Assembly (NCBI GenBank): GCA_903945195.1
Contig: CAJAUT010000005.1
Span: forward strand, 1-35,232
Direction of reading: 5' to 3'
DNA: 35,232 bases
Source: an uncultured bacterium
GTDB taxonomy: Bacteria; Patescibacteriota; Microgenomatia; UBA1400; UBA12108
This document shows positions 8,551-14,502 of the stretch, piece after piece. The position numbers were made by a program, and so were the translations under genes. The notes beneath the pieces are model-generated. The model was given only the letters and a program-made list of their open reading frames with translations. It did not search any database and had not been told where the DNA came from. Within the stretch, counting starts at the first letter, position 1, and the number at the start of each line of letters is the position of its first letter.

Positions 8551-8856
8551 ATGATTATTTTGTCTCGTCCAGTAGAGTTTGAGTGGGATCAAGGTAATCT
8601 TGATAAAAACTGGCTTCGACATGGTGTTGCCAATACCGAAATTGAAGAAGTCTTTAGGGATGACAAAAAGATCATAGGTCCGGATTTTAAACATTCGACC
8701 ACGGAGACGCGCTACTTTCTCCTTGGAAAGACCAGTAAAGATCGATTATTATTTTTGATATTGACCCTACGTAAGGGGAAGGTGCGCGTGATATCTGCAA
8801 GAGATCTTAATAAAAAACAAAGGAGGTTTTATGAAGAAACAATTAAAGTTGCCTAA
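8551..8856 (+). CDS. brnT: BrnT-family toxin
   Basis: The 101-residue protein matches the BrnT (DUF497) pattern: N-terminal FEWDQGNLDKNWLRHGV, then IEEVFRD, the strand RYFLLGKTSKDRLLFLILTLR, and the C-terminal RVISARDLNKKQRRFYEE. BrnT toxins are RelE-fold ribonucleases that slow translation and are held by a DNA-binding partner. The gene is leaderless from its own promoter. It overlaps the antitoxin gene by 26 nt, and the Shine-Dalgarno of the antitoxin lies inside its end. Toxin-first order is the norm for this family. Confidence 0.85.
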   Translation: MIILSRPVEFEWDQGNLDKNWLRHGVANTEIEEVFRDDKKIIGPDFKHSTTETRYFLLGKTSKDRLLFLILTLRKGKVRVISARDLNKKQRRFYEETIKVA

Positions 8857-9094
8857 ATTTAAAAATGAAGATGAAGAAAGGGACTTTTGGGATAAAGTAG
8901 ACTTTACTGATTATTTTGAGCCAACTGACTTTAAGAGAGTAACATTTCCCAATCTTAAACCTACTTCACAACCAGTCTCGATAAGAATGCCAAAATACAT
9001 GCTAGCTCGACTCAAGGAGAAAGCTAATTTTTTAAATGTGCCGTACCAAACCCTGATGAAGCAGTATATAGAGAAGGGTGTAGCGACTGCGTAA
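8831..9094 (+). CDS. CopG/BrnA-like antitoxin
   Basis: The 87-residue protein has an acidic N-terminal half (EDEERDFWDKVDFTDYF) of the type that wraps a toxin. Its C-terminal half looks like a ribbon-helix-helix DNA-binding domain (QPVSIRMPKYMLARLKEKA, then VPYQTLMKQYIEKG). This matches the CopG-type antitoxin family partnered with BrnT. AAGGAGG precedes the ATG, inside brnT, so translation is efficient and coupled. It probably binds and represses the operon promoter at 8515-8544. Confidence 0.8.
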   Translation: MKKQLKLPKFKNEDEERDFWDKVDFTDYFEPTDFKRVTFPNLKPTSQPVSIRMPKYMLARLKEKANFLNVPYQTLMKQYIEKGVATA

Positions 9095-9702: not shown

Positions 9703-9721
9703 CGTGGACAATGGTGGACAT

Positions 9722-10603
9722 ATGCCAGATATAACGTTTAGAAATAGTCCAGTAACAGAGAAAGTCAGATGGAAATCTACTAGGATAGAAGTAGCTAACG
9801 GATGGTTTGAAAATCATGGATTTCTGGTAGTCCCAGAGCTGAGAGTAGATGTGTCTACACAAATCCAGGTGGTTTATCCAAAGGACTTTGAGTATCTCCA
9901 GTCGAGCACAAAAGAATTTGAGGCTGAGTGGGGGAGAGTAGAAGCCGCATTTTGGGAGGAGCTAGATCATTATCTGCCAGAAGCCAAGAAAATGCACAAT
10001 GATGTGGTCGTGGACGTAGGACGGATTGGGACGATATCTTCTAGTTACTGGAGTGTAAATCATTACTATTTACGTCAAGACAGGAGTCTGGGAGACTTGG
10101 CAGCCATGATCGTAAACCATGTAATGTATGTAGAGAGAAATAGTCTGGGAGTGACTTGGACCAAACGTGAGGCGCTCATGGACTTTATCATGACTAGACC
10201 CGTGATGAAGAAGCTTTTCCCTAAATTTGACCCAATCTACCATCAACTTTCAAAAGTACCACTTAAAATCAGACGAGAAAGCGAAAGGTATGTGCGGTCG
10301 CTTGGGATAGCTCCTATAACTAAAGAACTAGAGGTAAAAAATGGCAAGATACTAATAAAAGGGGTAGTGGCAGCTAAAGAACTGACAAAACAAGAAAAAG
10401 AAATAATGAAACAGATGATAAAGAATACTGGCGACATAGTGACCTACGATGAACTGGCAGATATCATCTGGGGTGAAGGAGAATTTAAAACTTTTTGGGC
10501 TATCAATAAGACGATGCAAAGACTTAGGGCGAGGCTAGTAAAATTGGGGATTGATGGGAAGCGAGTAGAGGCTGTAAGGGGGCAAGGATATCTTTTGAGA
10601 TAG
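9722..10603 (+). CDS. two-domain winged-helix regulator (OmpR/PhoB-type C-terminus)
   Basis: The 293-residue protein ends in a winged-helix domain of the OmpR/PhoB type (LTKQEKEIMKQMIKNTGDIV, ELADIIWG, then MQRLRARLVKLG and VRGQGYLLR). The N-terminal 200 residues are not a receiver domain: no Asp/Lys phospho-acceptor pattern is seen. It contains LAAMIVNHVMYVERNSLGVTW, where His followed five residues later by Glu loosely recalls a zinc-peptidase helix without its second His. What it senses is unknown. ATG 9722 is chosen over GTG 9704 because the -10 box at 9697-9702 overlaps the earlier codon. It is divergent from the 148-residue unknown gene and upstream of the DsbA-like gene. Confidence 0.75.
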   Translation: MPDITFRNSPVTEKVRWKSTRIEVANGWFENHGFLVVPELRVDVSTQIQVVYPKDFEYLQSSTKEFEAEWGRVEAAFWEELDHYLPEAKKMHNDVVVDVGRIGTISSSYWSVNHYYLRQDRSLGDLAAMIVNHVMYVERNSLGVTWTKREALMDFIMTRPVMKKLFPKFDPIYHQLSKVPLKIRRESERYVRSLGIAPITKELEVKNGKILIKGVVAAKELTKQEKEIMKQMIKNTGDIVTYDELADIIWGEGEFKTFWAINKTMQRLRARLVKLGIDGKRVEAVRGQGYLLR

Positions 10604-10682: not shown

Positions 10683-11462
10683 ATGAAACAAGCAATCACT
10701 CAGTACGCCATGGTAATACTACTAGTAGTAGGCGCCTATTTCCTAGGTGTTTATAAAACAAAAACAGAGTTTTTGGAAAAGGGAACTACTGCTGCTGCAG
10801 CACAAACCCCAACAGGTCAGCAACCTCAGAAACCAGCTAACGTAGATTTAGCAAAAATTCAAGAAAAATTTGATGGAAAACATATCACTTTTGGTAAAGC
10901 AAATGCAAAAATAATATTTACAGAGATATCTGATCCATCTTGTCCTTTTTGTCATATAGCTGCAGGATTACATCCTGAGCTAAACAATACAAGTGAGCAA
11001 TTTAAACTAAAGGCTGATGGGGGAACTTATGAAGCTCCAGTACCTGAGATCAAGAAACTGGTTGACTCTGGGAAGGCTAGCTTTATCTTCCTTTATGCAC
11101 CAGGTCATGGTAGTGGTGAAGTAGGAACTCAAGCTATGTACTGTGCTTATGACCAAGGCAAATTCTGGGAAGCTCATGACAAGCTCATGACAAAAGCTGG
11201 TTATGACCTACTAAACAATGTAGTGAAAAATGACTTAACTCAAGCTAACAAATTGGTAGAGTTGATGGGAAATAGTCTAAACGGCAAGAAACTACAGTCA
11301 TGTTTGGATAGCAAAAAATATGCTGGTCAAGTTGCCGATGACACTGCATTTGTGCAATCACTTGGATTTGGTGCTACTCCTACTTTCTTTGTAAACTCGA
11401 CCGTAGTTGAGGGAGCACAGCCCTGGAGCGCCTTCAAGAATACAGTAGATTCGCTACTTTAA
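10683..11462 (+). CDS. membrane-anchored DsbA-family thiol oxidoreductase
   Basis: The 259-residue protein has an N-terminal membrane anchor (residues 7-24) and a linker rich in Ala, Thr and Gln (to about 52). The thioredoxin-fold domain carries the catalytic CPFC (Cys87 and Cys90) and the cis-Pro loop GATPTFFVN near the C-terminus. Helical insertion between them includes HGSGEVGTQAMYCAYDQGKFWEAHDKL, typical of DsbA/DsbG-like and BdbD-like proteins. It should act outside the cytoplasmic membrane to form or isomerise disulphides. Two more Cys (in YCAYD and QSCLD) could form a structural bond. It has its own promoter and a GGAGG site; the following 7TM gene has a separate start signal. No DsbB-like partner is in the window. 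Confidence 0.88.
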   Translation: MKQAITQYAMVILLVVGAYFLGVYKTKTEFLEKGTTAAAAQTPTGQQPQKPANVDLAKIQEKFDGKHITFGKANAKIIFTEISDPSCPFCHIAAGLHPELNNTSEQFKLKADGGTYEAPVPEIKKLVDSGKASFIFLYAPGHGSGEVGTQAMYCAYDQGKFWEAHDKLMTKAGYDLLNNVVKNDLTQANKLVELMGNSLNGKKLQSCLDSKKYAGQVADDTAFVQSLGFGATPTFFVNSTVVEGAQPWSAFKNTVDSLL

Positions 11463-11487: not shown

Positions 11488-12375
11488 ATGAATAAAATCA
11501 TACTGAGTATTGTCTTGTTTTTGGCCTTTGTAAACCCAGTACATGCTGAACTTGTCTCGCCGATTGCAACTATGTCTGGTGAGATAGCTACCCCTGCAGC
11601 AATAGTAGAAAAACAACCATTAGAGAAAACTAATCTTACTCAGCCAACCGACGAAACAAAAAGTAAACTTCAAAAAGTGCTTGATGGTAATCCCGTGGGA
11701 GAGCTGAGCTGGAATAACTTTTTGCGCTATGCGATCACCAAAGCAGCTGATAATGGGGTACCTATCAATACGATTGTATTGATTTTACTATTTCCCCTGG
11801 TTGTGGCGATTGTGGCTGCAGCGCGGCACCTCATTGGTGTGCGTGGTGCTGGTATCCTGACACCAGCTCTTTTATCTGTGGCATTTTTGGCTACTGGCAT
11901 CTGGGCAGGAGCTGCTTTATTTATCGTAATTTTACTTGTGACTGTGGTGGGTAGAACGGTTCTAAAGAGTCTTAAACTGCAATATTTGCCACGTGTATCA
12001 CTACTTTTATGGGTGGTCTCGGCTGGAGTATTTTTGACACTGTTTGCAGCTTCGATTTGGAATATATCACAACTTGTGACAGTGGGAATTTTTCCTATTT
12101 TGATACTTATGCTACTGGCCGAAACATTTATTGATATCCAAGCTGGACGAAGTGGTAGTGAGGCACGAGCTTTATTTTTCCAGACATTTGCACTTGCTAT
12201 GATATCGTCACTTTTACTAGGTAGCGAGATGGTGCAAAGGGCACTACTGATGTGGCCGGAAATCATCTTTTTTGGAGTGGCAATATTTGATCTATTTATG
12301 GGTAGGTATACTGGTCTTCGACTATCTGAGTACCTGATGTATAGAGGTATCGTAAAGGAAGATGAGGAGGAGTAA
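11488..12375 (+). CDS. 7TM protein of the amidoligase-associated family, with signal peptide
   Basis: The 295-residue protein starts with a clear signal peptide (MNKIILSIVLFLAFVNPVHA, cleavage after A20). A polar linker to about residue 75 is followed by about seven membrane helices up to residue 278 and an acidic tail KEDEEE. The helices around GVRGAGILTPALLSVAF and AETFIDIQAGRSGSEA, with its position before an ATP-grasp gene, resemble the 7TM family usually fused to an inactive transglutaminase (Pfam 7TM_transglut). Here that transglutaminase domain is missing and only a short linker remains. A TATAAT box (11475-11480) lies 7 nt before the ATG, so the message is leaderless. The next gene starts 2 nt after its stop. 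A role in membrane-linked peptide or amino-acid ligation is inferred from the conserved neighbourhood described for RimK-like amidoligases. Confidence 0.75.
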   Translation: MNKIILSIVLFLAFVNPVHAELVSPIATMSGEIATPAAIVEKQPLEKTNLTQPTDETKSKLQKVLDGNPVGELSWNNFLRYAITKAADNGVPINTIVLILLFPLVVAIVAAARHLIGVRGAGILTPALLSVAFLATGIWAGAALFIVILLVTVVGRTVLKSLKLQYLPRVSLLLWVVSAGVFLTLFAASIWNISQLVTVGIFPILILMLLAETFIDIQAGRSGSEARALFFQTFALAMISSLLLGSEMVQRALLMWPEIIFFGVAIFDLFMGRYTGLRLSEYLMYRGIVKEDEEE

Positions 12376-12377
12376 CT

Positions 12378-13661
12378 ATGAAACTCCGTGACGTCCTAGG
12401 ACTCAACTCGCGCAATCATCTCTACACTTCGGTTTACAACAGTCGAAAAGGAAAATTTGTTGCAAATTCTAAACTTTTAACCAAAAAAACTTTGAGAGAA
12501 AACAAGGTTAGAGTACCTGAGACTTATGCTGTGATAAAAGGTATGGAGGCTCTTGAAAACTTTGATTTTCTCAAGCTACCAATGGACTTTGTGGTAAAGC
12601 CAAATAATGGGCTTGGAGGGCAAGGGATCGTGGTGATCGAAGGTCAAGGTGAGTTTGCTGGTGAGTGGATTGATTCTCAAGGCCAGATGTGGGGAGTAAA
12701 TGATTTACGATTGCATATAGGTGATATTTTGGCTGGACGATACTCGATGGATGATATATCTGATATTGCATATATTGAAGAAAGAGTGCGAGTGGCCCCA
12801 GTATTTGAGAAATATAGTTATCATGGGACGCCAGATATCCGCGTGATTGTATTTAACAAAATTCCGATAATGAGTTATGTGAGACTACCTACTGAAGAAT
12901 CGGGCGGTAGAGCCAATCTTTTCCAGGGAGCAGCAGCTATAGGGATAGATATAGCTTCTGGCATCACCACATACGGCGTACATCATGCCAAGCCCACAGA
13001 GTTTTTCCCTGGTACTAGACGCAAGCTAGCAAATATCCAGATTCCTCAGTGGGAAGAAATACTGGAAACTGCGATAAAAGCGAGTGAGGCGATAGGACTA
13101 GGCTATATGGCAAGTGATATTGTGCTACAACCTGACGGGGATAAATCTACGCCGATGATACTTGAGGTAAATGCTCAGCCAGGACTTAAGATACAAATAG
13201 CTAATAGAGCGGGACTAAGAGAGAGGCTAGCTAGGGTAAAAGGGCTAAAAGTAGTATCTGCCAAACATGGGATCAAGGTGGCGCAGGCTTTATTTGTTGA
13301 CCCCAAGCTAGCTGAAAAAGGACTAGGGAGAAAAACAGTGGGAGCAATAGAAGAAGTAGAAATTTTTGGATTGAATGGAAAAATTGAAAAAATTAATGCC
13401 AAGATTGATACAGGAGCCGATGGATCTAGTATTGACAGAGTGCTAGCTGAGGAGCTAGGGTTACTTGAGCCTGACAATATTTTGTATCATGACTATTTTC
13501 GTAATGCCTTAGGGAGAAAAAAGCGTGAGATAGTAGGTGTAATGTTTGTGATGGCAGGGAGAAAAATCAGAACTAAAATTTCAATAGCAGATAGATCTAA
13601 ACTAAGGAATAAAATGATTGTAGGCAGGCGTGATTTAAAAACTTTTGCTGTTGTGGTGTAA
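12378..13661 (+). CDS. ATP-grasp alpha-L-glutamate ligase-like domain fused to retropepsin-like (RimB-type) peptidase domain
   Basis: This 427-residue protein has two parts. Residues 1 to about 285 are an ATP-grasp enzyme of the alpha-L-glutamate ligase-like family: FVVKPNNGLGGQGIVVIEG (nucleotide-binding Lys and Gly loop), YIEERVRVAP, PDIRVIVFN, and the metal-binding MILEVNAQPG. Such enzymes join an amino acid to a carboxylate by an acyl phosphate. Residues about 300-427 are a retropepsin-like domain of the RimB/Zn_protease family: IDTGADGSSID (catalytic Asp344) and VGRRDLKTF at the end. Usually these are separate genes next to a 7TM gene, so the fusion ties ligase and peptidase into one molecule. 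It follows the 7TM gene by 2 nt, and a second ATP-grasp gene follows. Substrates are unknown; ligation and trimming of a peptide tag is the natural inference. Confidence 0.85.
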   Translation: MKLRDVLGLNSRNHLYTSVYNSRKGKFVANSKLLTKKTLRENKVRVPETYAVIKGMEALENFDFLKLPMDFVVKPNNGLGGQGIVVIEGQGEFAGEWIDSQGQMWGVNDLRLHIGDILAGRYSMDDISDIAYIEERVRVAPVFEKYSYHGTPDIRVIVFNKIPIMSYVRLPTEESGGRANLFQGAAAIGIDIASGITTYGVHHAKPTEFFPGTRRKLANIQIPQWEEILETAIKASEAIGLGYMASDIVLQPDGDKSTPMILEVNAQPGLKIQIANRAGLRERLARVKGLKVVSAKHGIKVAQALFVDPKLAEKGLGRKTVGAIEEVEIFGLNGKIEKINAKIDTGADGSSIDRVLAEELGLLEPDNILYHDYFRNALGRKKREIVGVMFVMAGRKIRTKISIADRSKLRNKMIVGRRDLKTFAVVV

Positions 13662-13671
13662 AATAGATCTT

Positions 13672-14502
13672 ATGTTTTATATAATATCGACCAATACACT
13701 AGATGCTACTAAAAGATTAATTGATGCGTGTGAAAAACGAAACATTAATTATCAATTGTTAAATCCTTTAACTTTTGATCTTAATAAAAATAATTTTTCT
13801 GATAAAGATTCTTTTTATCGTGTATCTCGAATTCAAAGGGCGAGACTATTAGATGATTATCTAGTAGATAAAGGATGTGTAACTGTAAAAAAACAAGAAA
13901 GTAAGAAAAATTTTTCTAGATTAAATACTATTGAGCAAAATGAGTTGTGTGAAAAACAGGGCATTAAGTGTATCCCGACAATATATTTTCCAGTCTTAAA
14001 TCAGAATATCCTACTTAAACAAGTTGAAAACCTTAATGGATTCCCTGTAATAGTCAAAGAGATGGGTAGCTCTAATGGCGGTGGCGTTATGAAAATTGAT
14101 TCAATCAGTTCGTTGTTGTCAATTTTGAACATTGTTTTGCACTCGGCCAGAGGAGATGTTGTTTTGAAAAAATATATTGAACATGATGAGCAAGCTAGAA
14201 TTGTAGTGTTAAATGGAGTTGTTGTAGGAGAAAAGGCAAATCTAAGAAATAGTGATGACGTAATAATTGGTGGTGCTGGAACTCGCTTTATCTCAGAAAA
14301 AAAGGAATACCCGAAAGAAATTAGGGAAATGGCGATAAAGGCAGTTGAAGCGTTGGGCTTGAATTTTGGTGGGGTAGATATTCTAATTGGGAAAGATGGG
14401 AAAAATTACTTGGCAGAAGTAAATATGCCATGTGCCTTTACTTATGTAGAAGATGTGGCTGGGATAGATATTGCAGGGAAGATTGTGGAGTTTTTGAAAT
14501 AA
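13672..14502 (+). CDS. RimK-like ATP-grasp ligase
   Basis: The 276-residue protein has a RimK-type N-terminal domain (FYIISTNTLDATKRLIDAC) and an ATP-grasp core: FPVIVKEMGSSNGGGVMKI (ATP-binding Lys and Gly loop), VVLKKYIEHDEQARIVVLNG, and YLAEVNMPCAFTY with the metal-binding Glu-x-Asn. Homologues add amino acids such as Glu or Lys to protein or peptide carboxylates. I use ATG 13672 rather than the in-frame codon inside the previous gene because TAAAAT (13659-13664) lies 7 nt before it, giving a leaderless transcript. The gene is visibly more A/T-rich than its neighbours, with many AAT, AAA and TTA codons, which may mark recent transfer. Its place after the ligase-peptidase fusion suggests a second ligation step in the same system. 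Confidence 0.82.
   Translation: MFYIISTNTLDATKRLIDACEKRNINYQLLNPLTFDLNKNNFSDKDSFYRVSRIQRARLLDDYLVDKGCVTVKKQESKKNFSRLNTIEQNELCEKQGIKCIPTIYFPVLNQNILLKQVENLNGFPVIVKEMGSSNGGGVMKIDSISSLLSILNIVLHSARGDVVLKKYIEHDEQARIVVLNGVVVGEKANLRNSDDVIIGGAGTRFISEKKEYPKEIREMAIKAVEALGLNFGGVDILIGKDGKNYLAEVNMPCAFTYVEDVAGIDIAGKIVEFLK

Follow-up and report, generated by a model that had tools for sequence, protein, structure and literature searches.

The window, a stretch of 35,232 nucleotides (contig CAJAUT010000005.1) from an uncultured bacterium of the Patescibacteriota whose genome comprises 1.05 Mb in 34 contigs, encodes a 7TM membrane protein and, after a gap of 2 nt on the same strand, a protein that joins an ATP-grasp ligase to a retropepsin domain. 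These two genes and a third one had been described in an earlier note, made from the sequence alone, as a compact amidoligase module, and the three open reading frames lie where it had placed them. The features of the locus are as follows.

10683..11462, + strand: secreted DsbA-like thioredoxin-fold protein, directly upstream of the 7TM gene (PF13462, E 8.9e-17)
11488..12375, + strand: RloB-type 7TM membrane protein (PF14402; Pfam/NCBIfam matches, AF2 pLDDT 86, positive-inside pattern over 45 homologs)
12355..12372, + strand: C-terminal tail of the 7TM protein, K-E-D-E-E-E, proposed acceptor or substrate (tail conservation among loci)
12378..13256, + strand: ATP-grasp ligase domain, RloC/RimK-like, fusion residues 1-293 (TIGR02291, conserved residues, structural neighbours)
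13257..13661, + strand: fused RloA-type retropepsin domain, fusion residues 294-427 (profile matches to PDB 9g59, 9g58 and 2pma; AF2)
13407..13418, + strand: retropepsin catalytic motif D344-T-G-A, intact in the window (alignment)
13672..14502, + strand: accessory RimK-like ATP-grasp gene, outside the conserved core (PF08443, E 3.5e-16; RimK matches in the PDB)

The first half of the fusion fits the alpha-L-glutamate-ligase-like enzyme that had been proposed. Residues 3-293 match TIGR02291/PF14397 (E 3.8e-78), with nearly the full TIGR02291 model aligned at 262.7 bits, where the curated cut-off is 314.2. Two residues, K74 and E263, are invariant in the alignment and N265 is near-invariant. This half dominated the fold search with the fusion model, where ArgX, RimK and cyanophycin synthetase were nearest; ArgX and RimK are both protein C-terminal ligases. 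The second half is harder to recognise. Alone it scored 21.5 bits with PF05618, below the cut-off of 27, and a PF05618 scan of the window's own genome gave no match above threshold, because the domain has diverged too far to be caught by the Pfam model by itself; the RloA3 model matched the single fusion sequence with E 3e-5. A profile built from 34 orthologous C-terminal domains matched the RloA-like crystal structure 9g59 (E 5e-11), and also 9g58, 2pma from Legionella and DDI1. The D344-T-G-A motif is invariant in this set, save for T or S at the second place, and the alignment shows that the domain also keeps a flap-side G..R and the final IIGRRDL..F. By these profile and motif matches, the half is a real retropepsin domain, the fold on which the earlier note had staked its reading. 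The AF2 model of the fusion has a mean pLDDT of 92, and the protein has no cysteines. We infer that it must be cytosolic, because its retropepsin is attached to an ATP-dependent ligase.

The 7TM protein is predicted to consist of a signal peptide, an extracytoplasmic linker of ~70 aa, seven transmembrane helices and a C-terminus that the positive-inside pattern of 45 homologs places in the cytosol, on the side of the fusion. PF14402 matches residues 97-287 (E 1.7e-22), the NCBIfam RloB model matches within the 7TM half (model positions 312-508 of 508), and a fold search with the AF2 model retrieved no solved structure of similar fold (best E 3.3). The Pfam/NCBIfam scan of the protein found no transglutaminase (TG) domain, as had been noticed from the sequence. 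The idea of a trimmed protein fared less well, because the domain was found in no patescibacterial 7TM homolog scanned (0/34 long and 0/45 short ones), which speaks against a recent loss. In 26 of the 34 long homologs a PKD domain takes its place (e.g. L123:1750-3321). The extracytoplasmic part varies freely between TG (seen in L035, from the Oligoflexia), PKD and a short linker.

The third gene is RimK-like, as proposed: it matches PF08443 (59.8 bits, cut-off 21) and RimK structures in the PDB, and scores 79.2 bits with TIGR00768, whose curated cut-off is 143.4. The expectation that related genomes would keep the trio together stood for the 7TM and fusion genes and failed for this one: at E<1e-30 none of the five genomes of the same family holds a homolog, and among 89 relatives there are just two, both distant. 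We therefore rejected it as a core member. Other ATP-grasp genes do recur downstream of the module in some families. At L129:2411-5173, ligase and intact retropepsin are fused to a second ATP-grasp domain (ATP-grasp_3, E 2.5e-21), and at L124:3218-5779 to a further C-terminal region without a Pfam match.

On the other side of the module, the DsbA-like gene reported by the earlier note is confirmed and is the upstream neighbour in several families too. Further upstream, positions 8551-9094 hold two overlapping small genes that by eye look like a BrnT/BrnA-type toxin-antitoxin pair, and the protein encoded at 9704-10603 combines an N-terminal part without assignment and, in its C-terminal part, a winged helix of the OmpR type (PF00486, E 1.7e-11). 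An anti-phage defence system was considered and rejected, as PADLOC gave no matches, and the module was not found in the phage records searched. Five viral contigs (L226-L230) carry retropepsin-like domains resembling that of the window, at 24-32% identity.

The pair formed by the 7TM protein and the fusion is near-universal in the window's order of Patescibacteria. The fusion was matched in 79 of 89 relatives, including 61 of the 66 good-quality genomes, and nearly always at full length; across the phylum it was matched in 118 of 380 genomes. The 7TM gene lies directly upstream in 143 of 146 loci, with a median gap of 2 nt. In a scan of named genomes, six of the seven matches came from Woesebacteria, Levybacteria and Dojkabacteria; a genome in the same class as the window has a ligase identical to that of the Levybacteria, which makes Microgenomatia the probable class. 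The module is thus an order-wide architecture and not a reduced oddity of one genome.

The earlier note did not recognise the system to which these genes are related, rloABC of Pseudomonas aeruginosa (Lormand et al. 2025, PMC12239564). Both have an RloB-type 7TM protein with the PF14402 region, an RloA-type retropepsin carrying D[TS]GA and an ATP-grasp enzyme, which in the window resembles RloC, in an operonic layout; in the window, and in the 143 loci mentioned above, the layout is that of adjacent genes on the same strand. We file the module as a variant of rloABC and not as a plain member, because two published features fail. RloA is secreted and has a disulfide (PMC12239564), whereas the window's retropepsin lacks signal peptide and cysteines and is fused to the presumably cytosolic ligase; RloB has an inactive TG domain, which the window's 7TM protein lacks. 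The locus L035 keeps the unfused order rloA-rloB-rloC, with 4-nt overlaps, and its RloA contrasts with the window's retropepsin in secretion and cysteine features. Moreover, 96% of RloB matches were reported in Proteobacteria (PMC12239564), outside which the window's module falls. The rloABC system has a role in osmotic and envelope stress, and disruption of a Shewanella gene for a 7TM protein with inactive TG causes hypervesiculation (PMC12096838), which is consistent with a role in the cell envelope. In Pseudomonas, losing RloB or RloC rescues the defects that the lack of RloA causes (PMC12239564), which is what a writer-eraser pair predicts.

A second relative in function may be RimK-RimB, which polyglutamylates ribosomal protein S6 (RpsF) and reverses the modification with a cytosolic RimK-like ligase and a cytosolic retropepsin. 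RimB binds RimK, and in the window ligase and retropepsin are fused. Yet, the window's ligase appears to belong to the TIGR02291 group and not to RimK, it has a conserved 7TM partner, and its substrate is not RpsF as far as known. Both RloA and RimB cut polyglutamate (PMC12239564). The Pseudomonas study reports that its searches for proteins carrying polyglutamate failed (PMC12239564).

In other Patescibacteria, unlike in rloABC, the retropepsin is replaced by another peptidase. Many loci encode a MATCAP/TMCP metallocarboxypeptidase (PF08014, above cut-off, with HExxxH...EEGLA), either in the gene that follows or fused on as a third domain, the latter giving ligase-decayed retropepsin-MATCAP proteins of ~790 aa in many Patescibacteria (L034, L123-L161). 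We compared 146 loci, counting L032 and L173, whose ligases are identical, as one genome. A linked MATCAP accompanied 66 of the loci with a lost or altered D[TS]GA motif and was missing from 2; it accompanied 2 of those with an intact motif (L167 and L197) and was missing from 70. Six loci with DTG[IVE]-type motifs, five without a linked MATCAP and one with it, were set aside. The altered motifs include NTGR, NTSR, DTKR, DPHY and APER, while the domain and the ligase residues persist; DTGR and DTGK still hold the Asp, and there the retropepsin may have lost its activity.

The exceptions follow the same pattern. Lost-motif loci without a linked MATCAP (L081, L082 and L215, found later) have one elsewhere in the genome, as do the genomes of L181, L184, L185, L190 and L192, with DTG[IVE], where it lies some kb away or elsewhere. 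Therefore, a candidate eraser is present in the locus or genome for every one of the 146 ligases. Genomes of the window's order without MATCAP have an intact retropepsin or no ligase, except G072, in which a contig end truncates the locus. The window's genome itself has one divergent, unlinked MATCAP of 369 aa with HEIGTH (G000:C6:15099-15995; L221:3932-5041), which its five family members lack. On a tree built from the ligase domain alone, the motif must have been lost three times separately; a single lost-motif clade was rejected (AU p 1.2e-5), as were two pairwise unions (p 0.03 and 1e-4). The motif was thus lost or altered at least three times, with MATCAP fused or adjacent each time. The antagonism between ligase and eraser is, at the level of sequence comparison, well supported. 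The proposal of the earlier note that the fusion adds and removes amino acids next to a membrane partner is plausible. A literature search, with the amidoligase survey of Iyer et al. 2009 outside it, returned no patescibacterial Rlo, RimK-retropepsin or MATCAP-ligase fusion.

The 7TM protein has a further trait associated with MATCAP. In 58 of 67 MATCAP-linked loci, from all three clades, its last two residues are -EE, as they are in 9 of 11 later-fetched loci with lost motif and MATCAP; the same holds for 1 of 70 other loci, with intact or DTGx motif and outside the window's family, and, as background, for 2 of 597 unrelated ORFs. This -EE stands strictly at the end and is kept across very different linker and gap lengths; in one subclade a Ser/Asn-rich stretch precedes a final QEEE. 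These Glu codons could have been a by-product of Shine-Dalgarno sequences, an explanation that we rejected as unlikely: GAA is commoner than GAG (114:39), -EE is lacking from intact loci whose gaps are the same, and all seven MATCAP-linked loci with gaps >30 nt retain it. Tail and MATCAP are not strictly coupled. The window has an acidic tail (KEDEEE), an intact retropepsin and no linked MATCAP, and its family has -EE in 6/6 despite the intact retropepsin. Conversely, a group whose MATCAP has HE.[EQ]TH (L083, L084, L090, L094, L210, L219, L220 and L225) has 7TM tails without terminal -EE, and in three of its genomes MATCAP no longer lies by the operon.

E. coli RpsF itself ends in -EE. RimK extends RpsF with Glu at its C-terminus (PMC12239564), and TMCP/MATCAP enzymes with the HExxxH motif remove C-terminal residues and polyglutamylation, trimming tubulin tails (PMC10499314), which makes the 7TM tail a natural candidate substrate. 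In its exact -EE form it cannot be a universal acceptor, because of the 70 other loci in which the motif is intact or DTGx, 65 encode tails without any terminal Glu. Outside the window's family, most loci with an intact retropepsin would thus either use a different acceptor or give the tail some other role. In Pseudomonas the substrate may differ too, since secreted RloA could not reach a tail in the cytosol.

Given this architecture and its conservation, the repeated replacement of the eraser, the conserved tail and the predicted topology, we lean on balance towards the 7TM protein and the fusion forming a cytosolic variant of rlo, a writer-eraser switch tied to the membrane. As for catalysis, amino acid, substrate and physiological output, the ATP-grasp domain would join an amino acid, glutamate being the likeliest, to the carboxylate at a protein's C-terminus, and the fused retropepsin, which would have to dimerise, would hydrolyse it off again. 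The most likely substrate would be the Glu-ended cytosolic tail of the 7TM protein, KEDEEE-COOH in the window, and the length of this tail may govern how active the membrane protein is. Elsewhere in the Patescibacteria the job of the eraser would have passed to the zinc carboxypeptidase, and the retropepsin, its active site decayed and its fold kept, may have been retained as a domain for dimerisation or for binding the Glu tail. The motif's Ala has repeatedly become Arg or Lys, which, we speculate, would fit such binding.

Writer and eraser might instead act on another protein, a free peptide or a cell-wall precursor, with the 7TM protein as transporter, anchor or sensor and its acidic tail as a mere dock for ligase or carboxypeptidase. 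We regard this as possible, if rather unlikely. It would fit the many intact-retropepsin tails without terminal Glu, the Pseudomonas rlo phenotypes, which are those of the cell envelope, and the free variation of the extracytoplasmic part. Yet, a -EE kept strictly terminal at varied linker and gap lengths suits a carboxypeptidase substrate better than a dock. That the retropepsin decayed and MATCAP was gained independently, as traits of these lineages that coincide by chance, is improbable. With three independent events only, a formal independent-pairs test is underpowered and cannot reach 0.05, but all three losses coincide with MATCAP linkage, which has a probability of ~5e-6 given ~6 gains on ~291 branches (a crude estimate taking branches as equal and independent), and the later-fetched loci agree: the 11 with lost motif all have an adjacent MATCAP, the 3 intact ones none. 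A graspetide-like cluster, with the ligase modifying a precursor peptide, the peptidase removing its leader and the 7TM protein exporting it, is very improbable even if such loci have been described from the Candidate Phyla Radiation (PMC8939145), since the module is core-like (61 of 66 good-quality genomes of the order), no precursor ORF fits in the median gap of 2 nt, and the ligase is of the TIGR02291/PF14397 type.

The writer-eraser switch that we favour would have a eukaryotic counterpart in the TTL/TTLL - TMCP/MATCAP cycle of tubulin tails (PMC10499314), which also combines an ATP-grasp-type ligase, a PF08014 HExxxH carboxypeptidase and an acidic C-terminal target. The comparison applies to the relatives with MATCAP and is an analogy only for the window, which keeps its retropepsin; there is no tubulin, and the partner is a 7TM protein in the membrane. 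New here are the repeated replacement of retropepsin by MATCAP and the -EE tail of the 7TM partner. The swap between two unrelated Glu-removing peptidases provides comparative evidence on the product of the ligase, and the terminal -EE gives rlo-type systems a named candidate substrate that is open to direct assay. The comparison also brings to light a membrane module that is near-universal in a group of uncultured bacteria. More tentatively, Patescibacteria may run a self-contained cytosolic cycle of C-terminal glutamylation on the 7TM protein, with a fused retropepsin or a MATCAP as eraser and a pseudo-retropepsin for binding or dimerisation. If true, such a cycle would parallel the tubulin-tail code in bacteria, the substrate being the tail of the membrane protein itself.
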